Shown here: positions 36,662-45,916 of the stretch, piece by piece
Layout of the letters: every line of letters begins with the position of its first letter
Position numbering within the stretch: position 1 is the first letter of the stretch
Assembly (NCBI RefSeq): GCF_014695585.1
Contig: NZ_JACJON010000067.1
Location: 62,001 to 126,000, forward strand
Origin: Microcoleus sp. FACHB-831
GTDB lineage: Bacteria; Cyanobacteriota; Cyanobacteriia; Cyanobacteriales; FACHB-T130
DNA: 64,000 nt
Reading direction: 5' to 3'
Notes under the pieces: model-generated
Seen by the model: only the letters and a program-made list of their open reading frames with translations
Told to the model about the DNA's origin: nothing
Databases searched by the model: none
Program-made: the position numbers and the translations under genes

Positions 36662-38833
36662 CTACCAGCCTCTAACTAATTTCGCCACCTCCTCAACATC
36701 CAGACAATCTAGGGCAAATGCTTTGCGAAGCAGGTTGTTAGGAACAAATTCATCATACTTTTGCAGTTTTGGGGCTTCTTCAGCACTAACTAAATCATCT
36801 GCTGTAAGCCTTCTTGCCGCAAAACCAACTATTTCATCTTTAAGTGCATTAAAGTTTTCCTTGCCTAATTTAACATTCAGAAAATATGGAGAACGGCCTC
36901 CCATACTTCTGATGTCTAAAGACTCCCTGCACAAGGAATTCAAAAATCTTTCTAGCGTGTTGTAAGCTACAGTACCCATCCAAGGAAAAATACAGCAAGT
37001 CTTGCCTTCTAAGGGAATAATATTACTTTTGTCCAATCCAGCAAGTTTAGCCAACTGGCGAGCCGCATTCAGGCGCTTTTTAGCATTACTCTGCAAGTAG
37101 GTATATTCAATATCCTCAAAAAGCACTCTTCGCATCCGTTGCAAAATTTTAGTATGAATGGTGATACTGCCCCCATACCAAGAAATATTAGCCGAGCCTT
37201 CAGAACGCTTAACAAAAACTGTTTTTGCTTTAAAATCCACATTTAAAACTTCCCAAGTTCTACCTGCCAAAGCAAATTTGTTTCCAGCGGGCGGTGGCTT
37301 GATAATACTTCCAATTTCAATATGGTCATCTCTGACGAGATACTCCACATTGTCAGGAAACACAGCATAAAACTGAAACTTCTTCACAAGCTTTTCACCT
37401 GTCAAACCTAAGAGCAGTTTGCCCCGGTCAGTTTCCTGAATATGATCGATATCAATTAAATAGCGCAGCAATTGTTTAAAATCTTCTTTAGAGATAGCAG
37501 CAAAAGGTGGCAAAGTTAGAACTTGCTGTGCTAAAGCAGCGGGTGAAAGTTCCCCCATAGCTGCCAGAATACTCATTGTTTGGTGGTATAAAAGGCTGAA
37601 GGGATACTTAACAGGATGTATTGGCTCAATCCACCGTTCTTCTAAGTAAAGTTGGATAATAGCAATGCACTGCAAAAGTTGCCAAGGAATTTGATCGGGA
37701 AGCGGTTCTTCTCCTAATGGCTCATCTTCAGCGCAAATAAAACGCATATCCGCAGCACCGCCACGCCTCCCCGCACGTCCCAATCTTTGCAAGAAGCTGG
37801 ATACAGAGAATGGTGCTTCTAATTGAATCACGCGATCCAATTGCCCGATATCAATTCCTAATTCAAGCGTCAGCGTTGCAGCGGTGACTGATGCAGTATC
37901 AAGTTCGCGCATTTCATACTCAGCGGCTTCTCTTAAATGAGCAGAAATGCTGCCGTGATGGACGTGGTAAATGTCTGGTAATCCTTGGGTTTCGGCGATT
38001 TGACGCAGGCTTGATATAACTGATTCTGTTGCAGAGCGATTATTAGCAAAAATTAGGCATTTTTTAAATTTGGTATTGTCGAAGATATACCTAAAGTAAG
38101 GATTATTTATGTCGGGTTTATCAGCTTCTGGAATGTAAAAATGTTCTAGAGAAAAGTAAACTTTGCGTTGTCCGCCTTTAAGATCAGGAGTAATGACGGG
38201 TTTGCTAGTGCGATCGCTCAACCATTCTTCAGCCAGCGAATAATCGCCAAGCGTAGCCGATAACCCAATTCTACGCGGCGGCGTTTGCACAAATCTCGAC
38301 AAACGTGCTAACTGGCAAAGAATCTGGCATCCGCGTTCAGAACCCATAAACGCATGGATTTCATCAATAATTACAAACCGCAAATCTCCGAACAGACGTA
38401 CCAGTTCGGTATTCTTATTAATCAACAGACTTTCTAAAGATTCCGGCGTAATTTGCAGGATACCTTTCGGATTTTTTATTAACTGCTTTTTACGGCTTTG
38501 AGAAACATCGCCATGCCAATGGCATACAGGAATATCAGCTTCTTTCAAAAGGTCGTTTAAGCGATCGAATTGGTCATTTATTAACGCTTTTATGGGACTA
38601 ATATACAGTACGCCGATACTTTTAGACGGGTTTTGATGCAGTAAAGTCAAAACAGGTAAAAAAGCAGCTTCCGTTTTACCAGAAGCTGTTGCCGCCGCCA
38701 GCAATAAATGAGCATCAGTGTCAAATATTACCCGACAAGCTTCCACTTGAACTGCTCTTAATTCAGTCCAATTCTGGCTGTAGATGTATTCCTGAATAAA
38801 TGGCGCTAGCCTGTCGAAAGGCTGTGTAATCAT
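36662..38833 (-). CDS. Lhr-like DEAD/DEAH helicase (BrxHI-type)
   Basis: A 723-residue superfamily 2 helicase. Visible motifs: I LAAATASGKTEAAFLP, Ia YISPIKALINDQ, Ib TPESLESL, II VIIDEIHAFMGSERG, III GLSATLGD, V ATLTLELGIDIG, VI LQRLGRAGRRGG. The C-terminal ~300 residues hold an Lhr-like winged-helix/beta-barrel region. Lhr-type helicases unwind DNA-RNA or nicked DNA; the BrxHI version occurs beside BrxD in BREX phage-defence loci. Its ATG overlaps the BrxD-like stop (ATGA), so the two are coupled. No methylase, PglZ or PglX homologue is near, so full BREX is absent. Confidence 0.85.
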   Translation of the reverse strand: MITQPFDRLAPFIQEYIYSQNWTELRAVQVEACRVIFDTDAHLLLAAATASGKTEAAFLPVLTLLHQNPSKSIGVLYISPIKALINDQFDRLNDLLKEADIPVCHWHGDVSQSRKKQLIKNPKGILQITPESLESLLINKNTELVRLFGDLRFVIIDEIHAFMGSERGCQILCQLARLSRFVQTPPRRIGLSATLGDYSLAEEWLSDRTSKPVITPDLKGGQRKVYFSLEHFYIPEADKPDINNPYFRYIFDNTKFKKCLIFANNRSATESVISSLRQIAETQGLPDIYHVHHGSISAHLREAAEYEMRELDTASVTAATLTLELGIDIGQLDRVIQLEAPFSVSSFLQRLGRAGRRGGAADMRFICAEDEPLGEEPLPDQIPWQLLQCIAIIQLYLEERWIEPIHPVKYPFSLLYHQTMSILAAMGELSPAALAQQVLTLPPFAAISKEDFKQLLRYLIDIDHIQETDRGKLLLGLTGEKLVKKFQFYAVFPDNVEYLVRDDHIEIGSIIKPPPAGNKFALAGRTWEVLNVDFKAKTVFVKRSEGSANISWYGGSITIHTKILQRMRRVLFEDIEYTYLQSNAKKRLNAARQLAKLAGLDKSNIIPLEGKTCCIFPWMGTVAYNTLERFLNSLCRESLDIRSMGGRSPYFLNVKLGKENFNALKDEIVGFAARRLTADDLVSAEEAPKLQKYDEFVPNNLLRKAFALDCLDVEEVAKLVRGW

Positions 38834-40161
38834 AGTGTAAATTCTGCTAATTCACCGTCTGCATCCACATCGGAATCTTTGCTGGCTGATGTAAGTTTGA
38901 AATCAGAACCGTGTATTAATTCGCTCAAAGAAATAGTTGGGTTTTCTCTGAGAATATTTAACACGCTGATAAAGTCGCGTACTACTTCGCGCGGGGTTGC
39001 CAATTTATCAGCACCTAGACGACTTGTAATCTCCTGCATGAATTCCTGGAAGTCTTTAGCTTTGAGAGTTTTTTCGTAATTAAAATGAGTGGCGTGAACG
39101 TCGGATAAGCGTTTCAAAAGTTCTGTTAATTCTTGAGAAGTTAATGGATCTAACTGGATGGCTGCTCCAGAAGTATCTTGAATTCCCTCTCTAACAAAGC
39201 GGCTTTTTGCCAAGCGAGTCCGCCAAGCTTCATCGCTGTAAAGTCCTCGTCGCTTGTCTTCTAAAAATTGAGGAGTTCCTCCTAAGAAAATGCCCAAATT
39301 TTCCACACCGCCTTGCATGGTGTCGTTGAACATAGCCAACAACTTGTCGTAATTACTTTGGCGGGAAGCAGCATGAGTAATCTTGAATAAATGAACGGCT
39401 TCGTCAAGCAGAACTAGAAGCCCTTTGTAGCCGATATCAGATACAAACTTAGCAAGCAATTTGATGTAGTCATACCAGCTATCATCGTCAATAATGCTGA
39501 CGCGATCGCCCAAGGCTGACTTAGCCTCAGTCTTAGTAGCAAATTCCCCACGCAACCAACGCAGCGCCGCATCTTTTTTATCGCTATCATCCAATCTATA
39601 ACCGCGCCAATAACTAATAATTACGTTGGCAAAGTCGAATCCGTGAACTAATCCCTCAATTCCCTCTACTACTTCCCTAATTCTCGATTCCACTCGATCG
39701 TCAAAACCTTCATCTTTGGGATTCATGCCGCTATCTTGTGCGACTTGAGTCTGAATTCCAGCAATCCAGCGTTCCAAAATTGGCGGTAGTGCGCCTCCTT
39801 CAGGGCGAATTTTAGTAGAAAGATTTTGCATCAACTGACGATAAGTTGCAACCCCTTGACGATTGGTTCCTGCTAATCGGCGTTCGGGGGACAAATCAGC
39901 ATCAGCAACTACAAAATCTCTTTCCATAGCGTGGTTGCGAATCAGTTGCAGCATAAAACTTTTACCTGAACCGTAACGCCCCACAATAAACCGAAATGCC
40001 CCCCCGCCTTCAGCAATGTTATCCAGATCTTGTAATAAAGCTGCGGTTTCTTTTTCGCGCCCTACAGCAACGTGTTCGATACCAACTTTCGGCACAACTC
40101 CTGTACCGAGGGCATTTATCAAGCCAGTTGATACTCTTTTAGGAATTTTTAGCTTTGCCAT
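38830..40161 (-). CDS. P-loop ATPase of the DUF2791 / BrxD type
   Basis: A 443-residue ATP-binding protein. Walker A GRYGSGKSFML (residues 61-71), Walker B GLLVLLDEAVHLFK. Other conserved segments: RVSTGLINALGTGVVPKVG at the start, VADADLSPERRLAG, MFNDTMQGGVENLGIFLGG, EDKRRGLYSDEAWRTRLA. The pattern matches BrxD-like ORC/STAND-type ATPases. The ATG at 40161 follows an in-frame TTG nine bases upstream. Coupled to the helicase gene by ATGA overlap. A 236-bp gap with a composite repeat separates it from the upstream TerB-C-like coiled-coil gene on the same strand. Confidence 0.85.
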   Translation of the reverse strand: MAKLKIPKRVSTGLINALGTGVVPKVGIEHVAVGREKETAALLQDLDNIAEGGGAFRFIVGRYGSGKSFMLQLIRNHAMERDFVVADADLSPERRLAGTNRQGVATYRQLMQNLSTKIRPEGGALPPILERWIAGIQTQVAQDSGMNPKDEGFDDRVESRIREVVEGIEGLVHGFDFANVIISYWRGYRLDDSDKKDAALRWLRGEFATKTEAKSALGDRVSIIDDDSWYDYIKLLAKFVSDIGYKGLLVLLDEAVHLFKITHAASRQSNYDKLLAMFNDTMQGGVENLGIFLGGTPQFLEDKRRGLYSDEAWRTRLAKSRFVREGIQDTSGAAIQLDPLTSQELTELLKRLSDVHATHFNYEKTLKAKDFQEFMQEITSRLGADKLATPREVVRDFISVLNILRENPTISLSELIHGSDFKLTSASKDSDVDADGELAEFTL

Positions 40162-40245
40162 CTGACTCAACTTAATTTATTCGCAGATACTATCAGGTTA
40201 ACAATTAACAGACCTTTAATATCGATGTCCTGGGGAATGCAATTC

Positions 40246-40364
40246 GCGGCTATAAAAACCCCCGTTCTCTCAAACTGGAAGTCTGGGGCTATACAAACAA
40301 AGTCCGCCTGCGCGGATTAAATTTTCTTAAACCCTTGCTTCGCGGGTTTTGCCTGTATAGCCGC
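40246..40364. repeat. Composite palindromic intergenic repeat
   Basis: Outer arms GCGGCTATA (40246-40254) and TATAGCCGC (40356-40364) enclose an inner copy of GGCTATACA (40287-) and two hairpins, TCCGC-CTGC-GCGGA (40303-40316) and one with AACCC/GGGTT arms. It fills most of the gap between the coiled-coil and BrxD-like genes. Such composite hairpins recur in filamentous cyanobacterial genomes. Confidence 0.7.
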
Positions 40365-40406
40365 TATTACGAACATCCGCAGGTACTTTAATAACCATTA
40401 TTTTAT

Positions 40407-41552
40407 CTATGCATAGGTTTGAAGCATCTTTTTGACTGTTGTTATATACTCCTCTGTAATAATAGGAGGCTTTGATGCCGAACCGGGTTCGAGAATCAGA
40501 TCTCCAATAATATTCATAGCACGTTCGTTTATAGAATCAATCAATAGTTCTGGCATTGTTATATTCTCCTCAGCAATTTTTTTTATCGTTGCCGCTGGAT
40601 TATCTTCCTCTGCTATAGCTTTGAGTATCTGAATTTCGTATTTATGTAGTTGCTTGATAAATTTATTCAATTCAGGTGGTAAATCTTCTTGTAGCTTTTC
40701 CTTGGGTTTCTCTGGTGCAGATATATCCTGAATTAATTTGTCTTTTCCTTTCACTCTTTTGGAAACTTCGTTTGGCATCTCATTCTGCTTACCGCGCACG
40801 GATGAGACTTTTACTCGTACTTGGTTGCGTTCTAGTTGCAGCAAGTTTAAGCTAGATTCAATATTTTGCCTTTCAGCCATTATTGAGAGTAGCGATTTAT
40901 TAAGATCCTCTCTTTCTTGCTTAAGGGTTGCGATGCTGGCCTCTAATGTGGATAATTCAGCTTCTCCTTCGCGTTTTTGTCTTTTAAAATTAGCTATTTC
41001 CTGTTCTAGGGCTTCTTTTTCATTTTGTTGCTGTGTAATTTTAGATTGTTTTTTATTCAGTTCTTTTTCTAGGGAATTAAGGCTAGATTCTAGTTTTTGT
41101 TTTTCTACTGTTATAGTCGATAGCGATCGCTGCAATTCTGTTTCCCGTCGTCCAAGTAACTGAACTTCGCTTATTAAAGTATGCGATTGTTCTTCTAGTT
41201 GATATTTGTAGCCTCCTAAAACTGCTACCTCACGATTCAATACCTCTTTATGGCTATATGTTTCTGCTACTTGGTTTTGTAACTGAATTATTGTTGATTC
41301 TAAATAATCTAGTTCGTCTTCTAAATCTATTCTTTCTTCATCAATAAGTTGAATTTCATTTTCTAAAGAATTTATTTGCTGTTTTTGTCTAATGCTTACA
41401 ACTATAGCCCCTGCATAGGTAGCAGGTACAGTAATTAAACCTGCGAGCAATGCTTGTGTAATGTCTCGGTTGACAAGGAACCCAAGACCGCAGCTTACAC
41501 TGAAGGCAACTGAACCGAGAAGTATCCGATTGATTACCTTGGCTGATTGCAT
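40407..41552 (-). CDS. Membrane-anchored coiled-coil protein with TerB-C-like C-terminus
   Basis: A 381-residue protein. Two hydrophobic helices (about residues 9-26 and 31-50; SVAFSVSCGLGFLV, ALLAGLITVPATYAGAIVV) form a membrane hairpin. Residues ~53-240 are a long coiled coil. A charged linker follows, then a C-terminal ~85-residue domain (IQILKAIAEEDNPAATIKKI, LIDSINERAMNIIGDLILE, IITEEYITTVKKML) that resembles TerB-C, the domain found in Ter-linked stress systems. It lies directly upstream of the BrxD/helicase pair on the same strand. It may be the membrane platform or sensor of that pair; that is inference. The coil could also be a generic scaffold. Confidence 0.7.
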   Translation of the reverse strand: MQSAKVINRILLGSVAFSVSCGLGFLVNRDITQALLAGLITVPATYAGAIVVSIRQKQQINSLENEIQLIDEERIDLEDELDYLESTIIQLQNQVAETYSHKEVLNREVAVLGGYKYQLEEQSHTLISEVQLLGRRETELQRSLSTITVEKQKLESSLNSLEKELNKKQSKITQQQNEKEALEQEIANFKRQKREGEAELSTLEASIATLKQEREDLNKSLLSIMAERQNIESSLNLLQLERNQVRVKVSSVRGKQNEMPNEVSKRVKGKDKLIQDISAPEKPKEKLQEDLPPELNKFIKQLHKYEIQILKAIAEEDNPAATIKKIAEENITMPELLIDSINERAMNIIGDLILEPGSASKPPIITEEYITTVKKMLQTYA

Positions 41553-41741
41553 ATTGCTTATTGTTAGCAGAATTAACTTGTTGAAAGATGAGCTGAAGCT
41601 AGGCAGGATTTTGATATAGCAGAAGCGATCGCCTGCTTTGCGGCTGGCTTAACTTCTTTTGCTGGCTCTTGCTTAGTCACGAGTCTCCAAGCCTTATTCC
41701 ACAGTAACGGTTGTTGCTAATTATGTGTTTAATATATGAGC

Positions 41742-43088
41742 TTATGACCCAAAAAGTGCCAAATCTGCTCGGAGGAAGTCAACAAATTGTCGTGCTGTTC
41801 GCCCAGAGCGACCGTTGTGACGAGTTGCCCACTGTAGGGCGCGATAATCTAAATCATCCTCGCTCAGGTTAATTCCCTGTTGCGCTGCGAGATGTCGAAC
41901 AATGTTTAAGTAGGTATTTTGATCGGCAGATTCAAACGTTAGAGTAAGACCGAAGCGATCGCTAAACGATAATTTCTCCTGAACAGTATCCCACGCATGG
42001 ACTTCATCACCATCGCGGGGAGCGGGTCTATCTGCAAAAAACTCCCTAATCAAATGTCGTCGATTAGAAGTCGCATACACCACCACATTTTGAGGACGTG
42101 CCGTTATATTCCCCTCCAAAACAACTTTTAGCGCCTTAAAAGCATCATCATCTTCCTCAAAAGAAAGATCGTCAACAAATATAATGAACTTTTGGGGTAC
42201 GCCGCGCAACTTTTCCACAATCTCAGGTAAAGCTTTTAATTCAGATTTAGCAACTTCTATCAGACGCAGTTGGCTGTCTTCATACTGGTTCAACAATCCC
42301 TTCACCAAAGAAGATTTACCAGAACCACGACTGCCATAAAGTAATACGTGAAGTGCTGGATAACCTGCTAATAAAAATTCTGTATTTTTCAGCAAAGCAT
42401 CTCGCTGGGACTCATAGCCGACTAATTCTGTAACTTTCACTGGATCGGCGTGTGGAATGCCAATCATCTGCCCAGATTGCCAGCGAAAAGCGCGATATTC
42501 AGCAAATATTCCCGTGCCAAATTGCTGATAGTGAGCGGCTAAATCTTCTAACGCATCTGCCCAACTTTCTAGCGTTGCAAGTTTCTCTCGTATAAACAAT
42601 TCATTTTCAGATATAGTCTCCGGTTCTTGATGCCAAACAACTGGCATCAGCGGTATTTGGCAAGCTTCTTGCACCCAGCAACTAATCTGGGCAGAAGGGC
42701 AATCATAGATACTTTGCAAGGCTTGTAAATCGCGCTGTGCGGCGTCTACTAAAGCTGGGGGCAAATCTGACAACGACGCCTTCTGGGCTTGTTGAGTAAA
42801 GGGGTTATCGTCTTTGAGGATTTGGGCGATCAAATACTCTTGCCAGCTTTGATTGCTAGCAGCTTGGGCTTTAAACCAACGCGAGTATGACTCTAGATAA
42901 CTAAATCCATCGCGATCCGGCTGGCGTAAGGTTTGCAGCAGTTCGAGAAACGCGATGCCTACTTCGCCACTGAGGACAGATTGATAAAGCAACAGTGACG
43001 CGGCTTCGCGTTGGAGGGATTGAATTGAAGCAATCGTTGAAGCATCCATTTTAGGTATGGTAGCAGCGATCGCTCCTGCTACACTCAA
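41742..43088 (-). CDS. DUF815 family AAA+ ATPase
   Basis: A 448-residue protein. The C-terminal 230 residues are an AAA+ domain of the DUF815 type: VGYESQRDALLKNTEFLLAG, Walker A LLYGSRGSGKSSLVKG, Walker B FIIFVDDLSFEEDD, NVVVYATSNRRHLIREFF, FSDRFGLTLTF. The N-terminal half is helical and cyanobacteria-specific. Function unknown. The TTG start at 43088 is preceded by AGGGA at good spacing and begins 11 bp after the upstream kinase stop; an ATG at 43049 is the alternative. It is the second gene of a run of five minus-strand genes that includes the BrxD-like pair. Confidence 0.85.
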   Translation of the reverse strand: MSVAGAIAATIPKMDASTIASIQSLQREAASLLLYQSVLSGEVGIAFLELLQTLRQPDRDGFSYLESYSRWFKAQAASNQSWQEYLIAQILKDDNPFTQQAQKASLSDLPPALVDAAQRDLQALQSIYDCPSAQISCWVQEACQIPLMPVVWHQEPETISENELFIREKLATLESWADALEDLAAHYQQFGTGIFAEYRAFRWQSGQMIGIPHADPVKVTELVGYESQRDALLKNTEFLLAGYPALHVLLYGSRGSGKSSLVKGLLNQYEDSQLRLIEVAKSELKALPEIVEKLRGVPQKFIIFVDDLSFEEDDDAFKALKVVLEGNITARPQNVVVYATSNRRHLIREFFADRPAPRDGDEVHAWDTVQEKLSFSDRFGLTLTFESADQNTYLNIVRHLAAQQGINLSEDDLDYRALQWATRHNGRSGRTARQFVDFLRADLALFGS

Positions 43089-43099
43089 ATATAAATTCC

Positions 43100-45916
43100 C
43101 TAAATCATTTGCCGAATCGGAATTTCAATTACAAACTGCGCTCCTCCACCTGGCGCTGATATACACTCCAACCGACCGCCGTGTTTTTCCACCACAATTT
43201 GATAGCTAATCGCCAAACCCAGCCCAGTTCCTTTGCCTATCGGTTTGGTAGTAAAGAAGGGATTAAATAACTGTTGCCTTACTTCCTCTATCATCCCTTT
43301 GCCGTTATCTATAATTTTTATAACTACGCGATTTTTGTCTATTGCTTCAGTACAAATCCAAATCTTACTGGGATTTTTCTTAATTTCTTCTAACGAACGT
43401 TGATGGTTGTACTCATCTAAAGCATCAATGGCATTAGCCACCAGGTTCATAAACACCTGATTCAACTGTCCCGCATAGCACTCAACTTTGGGTAAGTTAC
43501 CGTATTCTTTAATCACCTGAATGTTGGGATGATCTGTTTTAGCTTTCAAGCGATTATGCAAAATCATCAGCGTACTATCAATCCCCTCGTGTATGTTAAC
43601 TTCCTTCATTTCCGCTTCGTCAATCCGCGAGAAGTTACGCAACGAGAGGACAATTTCGCGGATGCGGTCTGCTCCTACCCTCATTGAAGAGAGCAAATTA
43701 GGAAAATCTTTTATAAGAAAATCCAGGTCAATTGCTTCCATTTTCGATTGAATTTCTGCTGTGCCAGTAGGGTAATGTTGCTGATATAGTTCCACTAATC
43801 CAAGTAAATCTTGGCTGTATTCCCTGACATGAGTGAGATTTCCATATATAAAGTTAACCGGGTTATTAATTTCGTGGGCAATCCCTGCAACAAGTTGTCC
43901 TAAACTAGACATTTTTTCACTCTGAATTAGTTGTGATTGAGTGCGTTGCAGTTCTTGCAGAGTATGTTGTAGTTCCTGGTTTTTTTCTTTCAATTGAGCT
44001 TCTTTCTCGCGGCGGGCTTCCTCCGCTTGTTTGCGAGCCGTGATATCTAGAACTGTGACACCAATAGCCATCGGTTGGCCGTTTGTTCCAGGTATGGGAA
44101 ATTGAGAAGTTATCCAGTGAAGTACCGTGCCCGGTTGGCTAGGTAATTCACCGCACGCCTCGATATTTAAAGCCGCTTCGCCTGTCGTCAATACCTGGCG
44201 TAACGACTGTTCAATAACTTGTGCAGCATCGGGCAAAATTTCACTAATAGATCTTCCCAAATGTTGTTCGACAGCAACACCATTAATCTGTGCCAGTGCT
44301 TCGTTGACTTGCAAGTATCGCATCTGGTCGTCCAAAATTGCAATTCCCACAGGTGCAACAGTCACAAATGAGTTTAAAAGCTGCTCCCGCCGCGCTACTT
44401 CTCTTTCTAATGCCTTGCGATCGCTTATGTTCCGCCCAATGCCAATCAACCCTATGGTATTTCCTTGCAGATCGCGCCAAGGACTTTTCGTGACCAGATT
44501 CGTTGTAACTGTGCCCATCGACGGTATTATTTCCTCGATAGTCTCAGCTTCACCAGTCCTCATAATTCTCTTGTCGGTTTCGGTCAGGATAATCGCGATC
44601 TCAGGAGGCAAAAAGTCGGCATCTTTTTTTCCGATAAGTTCTTCTACTGCATATCCTAAGACGTTGGCGCACGCTGAGTTAACCATCACTAGCTTTCCCT
44701 GAAGATCCTTCACAAAAATGGCATCTGGCGTGCTTTCAAGAACCGCGTTCAAAAGGTTATAGCTTGTTTGTAGTGCTTCTTCTATTTGTATACGCTCAGT
44801 AATTCGCTGGTGCAATTCTTTGTTAACTTGCTTCAGCTCAATAGTACGCTCTTCTACTCTATTTTCTAAATCTTGGTTAGCCTGTTTAAGCCCTTTTTCT
44901 GCACGCTGCCGCTGAATATCTATGGCACCAAGTTTGTTAGCGTTCCACCAAGTTAGAATCGCAAAAATGATAACGTTGAAAACTGCCAGGAGGGACATTC
45001 CCACCTCAGTATCATAAGTATTAGAGCGGTAGCCTCCTACGATAAACCACCCTAATATAGGCGGAATAGCGATCGCGCCAGGAAATAAACGCCGAGCCAA
45101 AACCCCGCCTGCATTATCCTTGATTACTACAGACATTAAGCCTTGGTTTGGACTGGCAAATAACATTCCCAAACACAGTAGCAAAAAGCACCCTGCTGTA
45201 TGCAGCGCCATGCGCGTATAAGGGCCAATGCCATAAAAAGATTCAATGCCATAAGCGTAACCAAGCAAACCTACTAAAGCAATTAAAAATGCTACAACAG
45301 TTAGGCTCTGGGCGATAATATAGTTTTTGCGATCGCGCCTATTTAGCAGCACTCCAGCACAGCCTAGCAATACGAAGGTTACAGCGGTATTGGGAGCCAT
45401 CCGGTTGGGAGCAAACGTCCCAACTGCGGTTATTGATTCCTCGAATAAAAGTTGATCGATCCCCAAATTCCAGCCAAAGCAATATTGACTTAATGTGAGC
45501 AGACCAATTAGCAGAACAATACTGGCGAAAACTTCAGCCAGACTAAAATTAAAAGCTAAATGTAAAAATAAGGGATTTTTTATTTTGCCTTTTGCCTGCT
45601 CAATATCTGAGCGAGCAATGTTATACCTATTTTTGCGGCTGTTTTTACTTTTACCTTCTTTATGCCACAACCACAAAGATAAGCCACTCATAATGAACGC
45701 TAAACTTGTGTTTGTTTTCATGCTCACCAGTCCAGGGAAGATGCTTTTAAGGGTGGGAATGTCGAGCATCCACCCCAGCAAAACCACGCAGCCAATTCCA
45801 GTTACCGCAATACTGGCTTTTCTAGAAAAAGAATGTAAAGACTTTATTAATTCTGTCTCTACATTCCTAAAAGTTGCAGTTGAATAAATTTGGGCTAGTT
45901 GATAATAATTTTCCAC
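43100..45916 (-). CDS. Membrane PAS sensor histidine kinase
   Basis: A 938-residue kinase. Residues ~30-330 are membrane-embedded with about eight hydrophobic helices. A coiled linker follows, then two PAS/PAC domains (about 380-500 and 510-630; LNAVLESTPDAIFVKD, NSFVTVAPVGIAILDD). Another coil precedes HisKA with SLGQLVAGIAHEINNPVNFI (His681), then a HATPase domain (NLVANAIDAL, DNGKGM, GKGTGLGLAIS). The H-box type is common in cyanobacterial kinases with no cognate regulator nearby. The start is GTG, with AAGGTT upstream. It is followed 11 bp later by the DUF815 gene, so it may be co-transcribed with that gene. The signal is unknown. Confidence 0.92.
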   Translation of the reverse strand: MENYYQLAQIYSTATFRNVETELIKSLHSFSRKASIAVTGIGCVVLLGWMLDIPTLKSIFPGLVSMKTNTSLAFIMSGLSLWLWHKEGKSKNSRKNRYNIARSDIEQAKGKIKNPLFLHLAFNFSLAEVFASIVLLIGLLTLSQYCFGWNLGIDQLLFEESITAVGTFAPNRMAPNTAVTFVLLGCAGVLLNRRDRKNYIIAQSLTVVAFLIALVGLLGYAYGIESFYGIGPYTRMALHTAGCFLLLCLGMLFASPNQGLMSVVIKDNAGGVLARRLFPGAIAIPPILGWFIVGGYRSNTYDTEVGMSLLAVFNVIIFAILTWWNANKLGAIDIQRQRAEKGLKQANQDLENRVEERTIELKQVNKELHQRITERIQIEEALQTSYNLLNAVLESTPDAIFVKDLQGKLVMVNSACANVLGYAVEELIGKKDADFLPPEIAIILTETDKRIMRTGEAETIEEIIPSMGTVTTNLVTKSPWRDLQGNTIGLIGIGRNISDRKALEREVARREQLLNSFVTVAPVGIAILDDQMRYLQVNEALAQINGVAVEQHLGRSISEILPDAAQVIEQSLRQVLTTGEAALNIEACGELPSQPGTVLHWITSQFPIPGTNGQPMAIGVTVLDITARKQAEEARREKEAQLKEKNQELQHTLQELQRTQSQLIQSEKMSSLGQLVAGIAHEINNPVNFIYGNLTHVREYSQDLLGLVELYQQHYPTGTAEIQSKMEAIDLDFLIKDFPNLLSSMRVGADRIREIVLSLRNFSRIDEAEMKEVNIHEGIDSTLMILHNRLKAKTDHPNIQVIKEYGNLPKVECYAGQLNQVFMNLVANAIDALDEYNHQRSLEEIKKNPSKIWICTEAIDKNRVVIKIIDNGKGMIEEVRQQLFNPFFTTKPIGKGTGLGLAISYQIVVEKHGGRLECISAPGGGAQFVIEIPIRQMI

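Follow-up and report, generated by a model that had tools for sequence, protein, structure and literature searches.

The stretch of DNA analysed here (the window; 64,000 nucleotides of contig NZ_JACJON010000067.1, assembly GCF_014695585.1, from Microcoleus sp. FACHB-831, to which all coordinates refer) carries four genes arranged in tandem on the minus strand. In the order of reading, they are a DUF815 AAA ATPase gene (41742-43088, minus strand, 448 aa), which is a conserved neighbour upstream of the other three; the gene for a coiled-coil protein with a TerB-C end (40407-41552, minus strand, 381 aa), for which we coin the name SngA*, used throughout for the cyanobacterial TerB-C protein; the gene for a BrxD-type ATPase, SngB (38830-40170, minus strand, 446 aa); and the gene for an Lhr-core/BrxHI-type superfamily 2 helicase, SngC (36662-38833, minus strand, 723 aa). 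The latter three form an operon-like cluster, and the ATGA overlap that couples the stop of SngB to the start of SngC, pointed out in a preliminary description of this DNA, is readily seen in the window. Between SngA* and SngB lies a gap of 236 bases (40171-40406) with an odd stretch, CGCGCAGGCGGACTTTGTTTGTATAGCC, which is present in a single copy in the window and resembles an inserted repeat. Upstream of DUF815 is a histidine kinase gene (43100-45916).

Judged by their sequences, SngB and SngC belong to the Shango family as its ATPase and its helicase. SngB matches the PADLOC SngB model over its full length with 591.8 bits versus 187.3 bits for BrxD, and SngC matches the PADLOC SngC model over positions 4-717 of 720 with 841.8 bits versus 448.5 bits for BrxHI; the BrxD and BrxHI labels of the preliminary description thus hold for the superfamily but not for the closest family. 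A canonical Shango control locus, which scores 360, 682, and 820 bits against the PADLOC SngA, SngB, and SngC models, likewise prefers the SngB and SngC models over BrxD and BrxHI. The domains named beforehand were all recovered by Pfam: BrxC_BrxD in SngB (551.5 bits), DEAD, Helicase_C, and WH_Lhr in SngC, TerB_C in SngA* (53.4 bits; cut-off, 26.3), and DUF815 in the neighbouring ATPase (326.6 bits). SngB has the Walker A motif GRYGSGKS and the Walker B motif LVLLDEA, and helicase motifs I, II, III, and VI of SngC are intact (TASGKT, DEIH, SATL, and QRLGRAGRRG). In aligned columns, these catalytic motifs are kept across the 27 genomes that carry both proteins (see below), except in one SngC fragment cut in extraction, and those of DUF815 are intact as well. 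By sequence, the nearest solved relatives of SngC include Lhr helicases and YprA; Lhr and YprA/MrfA are helicases of DNA repair. Since SngB and SngC share the ATPase and helicase superfamilies with BrxD and BrxHI, this homology could be taken to mean that the locus is an orphan fragment of a BREX system. However, the SngB and SngC models give much the higher scores, neither a methylase nor PglZ surrounds the locus, across the whole genome there is a single BrxC/D-family gene and no PglZ, in line with the earlier statement that no BREX gene is visible within 20 kb, and the same three-protein set recurs in other genomes without BREX. We consider this explanation highly improbable, and a BREX remnant was rejected on the scores and the absent PglZ.

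Anti-phage activity has been validated for Shango, which is made up of a TerB-like protein, an ATPase, and a helicase (SngA, SngB, and SngC; Johnson et al. 2023, PMC10250203); its mechanism is listed as unknown (PMC12926258). Because of this validation and the SngB and SngC scores, the locus is Shango-related and not a new system: the ATPase and helicase of what had been put forward as an "undescribed system" are Shango SngB and SngC (PADLOC; PMC10250203), and the accompanying warning that an association of TerB, ATPase, and helicase had already been described was correct, with Shango being that association. The cyanobacterial set has in common with Shango the full-length SngB and SngC matches and a TerB-C-bearing protein directly upstream of SngB in the same orientation, and the profile searches and PADLOC gave Shango-family assignments for all three proteins (for SngA*, the C-terminal part only). 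New beyond the preliminary description are the form that SngA takes in cyanobacteria and the vertical inheritance of that form; in the literature, subscription journals being outside our scope, we found no description of Shango in cyanobacteria in the SngA* form. Millman et al. 2022 is reportedly a further source for Shango.

SngA* is the component that departs from the canonical system. It scores 69.1 bits against the PADLOC SngA model and covers only positions 311-527 of 528, the C-terminal part of the profile, whereas canonical SngAs reach 295-360 bits. By Pfam, canonical SngAs have TerB_N and TerB_C, often with TerB; SngA* of the window has neither TerB_N nor TerB in the same search, only TerB_C, and is built instead of two N-terminal membrane helices, a long coiled coil, and the C-terminal TerB-C. 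The membrane helices, already noted earlier, lie at approximately residues 10-26 and 36-52 by hydropathy and were found in all 18 relatives, and SngA* proteins range from 380 to 530 aa (most of the sequenced relatives have 410-460 aa, and the window copy has 381 aa). Outside TerB-C, SngA* may be non-homologous to SngA. A split SngA with TerB_N encoded elsewhere was considered and rejected: TerB_N had no match in any of the 27 whole genomes with the SngA* form, and, as positive controls, 2 of 3 genomes with canonical-type SngB were matched in this search, the locus of the third being interrupted by the end of a contig. Cyanobacteria are not alone in this membrane association, because the SngA of a haloarchaeal Shango (L032, on a plasmid of the halophilic archaeon DL31) has a membrane part as well, an N-terminal TM2 domain; that plasmid-borne system differs in that its SngA has retained TerB_N and TerB_C and also matches TerB weakly. 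In SngA*, positive residues stand directly after the second helix in 18 of 18 relatives, which favours an orientation with the coil and TerB-C on the cytoplasmic side. The TerB-C region (residues 278-381; 40410-40721, minus strand) was modelled by AlphaFold2 with a mean pLDDT of 81.6 and a pTM of 0.68 as four helices, a beta hairpin, and one helix. The model is predicted to be winged-helix-like, a common arrangement without a clear structural match; since the matches were only weak and of the winged-helix type (best Foldseek E, 0.05; best VIA Z, 7.5), we claim no function from the fold search. On plasmids, SngA* gave three weak matches, none of which reaches the TerB-C domain (the records with an SngA*-like protein are AP018241.1, NZ_CP063791.1, and NZ_CP064886.1); a protein on a 46.9-kb Tolypothrix/Microchaete plasmid shares 25% identity with SngA* over its membrane and coil part and is without the TerB-C end. 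Of additional note, a canonical SngA of Yoonia (L035) is split by an IS3 transposase gene, with the TerB_N and TerB-C parts on either side.

In our survey of 292 genomes of the phylum, cyanobacterial-type SngB and SngC were found in an identical set of 27 genomes, with one copy each, and SngA* is present in all 27; the phylum also has members with more remote relatives of SngB and SngC, which were handled separately. Since the gene set recurs in this way, it is not a product of chance, and the suggestion that the three proteins form a joint set is borne out by the neighbourhood survey that had been called for. This strict co-occurrence does not depend on linkage: SngC lies away from SngB in about half of the 27 genomes, and the two can be more than 1 Mb apart (at 3.99 and 5.35 Mb in G251; at 4.82 and 1.79 Mb in G191). 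By parsimony on the GyrB tree, approximately 11 gain or loss changes account for the presence of SngB and SngC, always both together, and both are missing from at least 10 Nostocaceae in the sample. The set is dispensable, as its repeated loss shows. Ten further genomes have DUF815 and SngA* without SngB and SngC. In 3 of these 10 (G149, G233, and G005, of different genera), SngA* lacks the TerB-C end, which is missing in none of the 27 genomes with SngB and SngC (one-sided p = 0.015, uncorrected for relatedness); behind the shortened genes, a search for TerB-C remnants gave no convincing match. TerB-C is kept in the other 7, and it may therefore serve something besides SngB and SngC too. Weak SngA* matches in two other genomes (G157 and G195) were left uncounted; they are confined to the membrane and coil region, in proteins that look unrelated.

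In 77 of the 80 named loci, which are mostly from Nostocaceae, the gene immediately upstream of SngA* is DUF815, and 74 of the 80 have DUF815, SngA*, and SngB side by side. This, and the fact that DUF815 adjoins SngA* also in the 10 genomes without SngB and SngC, including the 3 with a shortened SngA*, would be expected if DUF815 were a working component of a four-gene system. Against this, DUF815 is a single-copy gene of 101 of the 292 genomes, many of which have no SngA* and surround it with varied neighbours, and in five genomes (G174, G091, G116, G185, and G289) it is separate from SngA*; the adjacency itself may be no more than conserved gene order in related genomes. We regard a four-gene system as unlikely, and DUF815 as an obligatory component is unsupported; it is best called a frequent conserved neighbour and a widespread core gene. 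In one genome without SngA* (G039, locus L272), DUF815 is followed, approximately 1.8 kb from its start, by a protein that by eye resembles TerB.

The history of the set is recorded in its trees and its surroundings. The tree of SngB is close to that of SngC (Spearman r, 0.965; 18 of 24 splits shared), and both largely match that of GyrB (r, 0.944 for SngB and 0.938 for SngC; 9 of 24 splits shared in each case). The best reading is that the cyanobacterial set was passed down vertically with the chromosome; GyrB is a single gene, and exact agreement in 9 of 24 splits leaves room for some transfer alongside vertical descent. Across the 80 named loci, SngC adjoins SngB in 17 and lies within 7 kb in 8 more, and the flanking genes of the Nostocaceae locus are conserved. 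DUF815, SngA*, and SngB are present in Nostoc punctiforme NIES-2108 (L172), for example. In many Nostocaceae genomes, a gene for a small membrane protein of the TMEM14 family is divergent from DUF815, and a gene for an APH-like kinase of approximately 412 aa lies 2-4 kb upstream of it (examples are L058:2800-4038 and L040:4732-5052, with equivalents in L116-L194); neither is seen upstream of DUF815 in the window. The genes around the set in the window are ordinary metabolic and regulatory ones, and PADLOC found no match and no defence gene among the ten neighbours tested. Canonical Shango is typically, though not strictly, located in defence islands or mobile elements; by its ten neighbours, conserved flanks, and tree agreement, the set of the window is not. 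Canonical-type SngB occurs in 692 plasmid records, of which 542 are predicted to be conjugative, and no SngB relative was found in phage records at E 1e-10. In both the SngB and the SngC tree, the cyanobacterial set groups with the Shango of a Paenibacillus plasmid (L031, NZ_CP045296.1) with a support of approximately 0.98. The SngB of this nearest outside relative is 56% identical to that of the window, and its SngB and SngC genes adjoin, the stop of one overlapping the start of the other, as in the window; it differs in being plasmid-borne and in having an SngA with TerB_N and TerB_C. Since TerB_N is still present there, the simplest reading is that it was replaced within the cyanobacterial line.

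Two explanations of what the set does have to be weighed. It may be a plain anti-phage Shango retained on the chromosome, with SngA* as a diverged SngA. SngB and SngC are close to the canonical models, canonical Shango blocks phages (PMC10250203), the nearest outside relative is a Shango with a TerB_N/TerB_C SngA, and patchy loss would fit a costly defence. On the other side stand the lack of a defence gene among the ten tested neighbours, the agreement with GyrB and the conserved flanks, the absence of SngA* of the window's type from plasmids, and the frequent unlinking of SngC; each of these would also fit a defence that is kept vertically. We take plain defence to be a serious possibility that falls somewhat short of even. 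Alternatively, the Shango module may have been domesticated for genome maintenance, processing damaged or stalled DNA at the membrane after its defence role had gone. Vertical inheritance, conserved position, and single copy number are in line with this, as are the Lhr helicases and YprA among the closest solved relatives of SngC; yet the set is dispensable, with SngB and SngC absent from the Nostocaceae mentioned above, and no repair phenotype is known. Such domestication is a tentative alternative, to which we give less weight than to plain defence. The vertical inheritance tends to favour a constitutive role, and the cyanobacterial set may do more than fight phages. The best reading of the sequences would be a role in constitutive defence or genome maintenance, in which the target may be phage DNA or damaged host DNA.

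Taking these findings together, we think it probable that the locus encodes a vertically inherited, chromosomal Shango-type three-protein system in a cyanobacterial form, which would be tethered to the membrane and act on DNA. We propose that SngA* is anchored in the membrane by its two-helix hairpin, which would hold the coiled coil and TerB-C in the cytoplasm; that SngB and SngC dock onto TerB-C at the membrane; that the SngB ATPase loads the SngC helicase onto DNA or drives or gates it there; and that the complex could thereby find and remodel abnormal or foreign DNA there. We infer membrane insertion, docking, the action of SngB on SngC, and DNA as the substrate from the intact motifs, the charge of the residues after the second helix, the TerB-C prediction, and the Lhr and YprA relatives of SngC. 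As to its origin, it is nearly an even question whether the module was taken from the mobile defence pool, exchanged TerB_N for a membrane-anchored coiled coil, and has been kept, at least since the common ancestor of Nostocaceae and Chroococcidiopsis-like lineages, as a chromosomal complex for DNA maintenance or constitutive immunity, with an ATPase-helicase pair that became dispersed yet is gained and lost as one unit. Given that SngA* accompanies an unlinked but inseparable SngB and SngC, TerB-C is the candidate for the contact between them. Shango in Nostoc and its relatives, being stable, present in single copy, and inherited vertically, is a natural setting for deleting each protein singly. 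The cyanobacterial set could thus allow a direct test of whether there is exchange between defence systems and the ordinary maintenance of the genome.

A minor observation concerns the gyrB genes. In several cyanobacteria (L215, L219, L220, L221, L252, L253, L254, and others), the gyrB reading frames have 800-1100 aa versus approximately 650 aa, which suggests that the long frames carry inteins.
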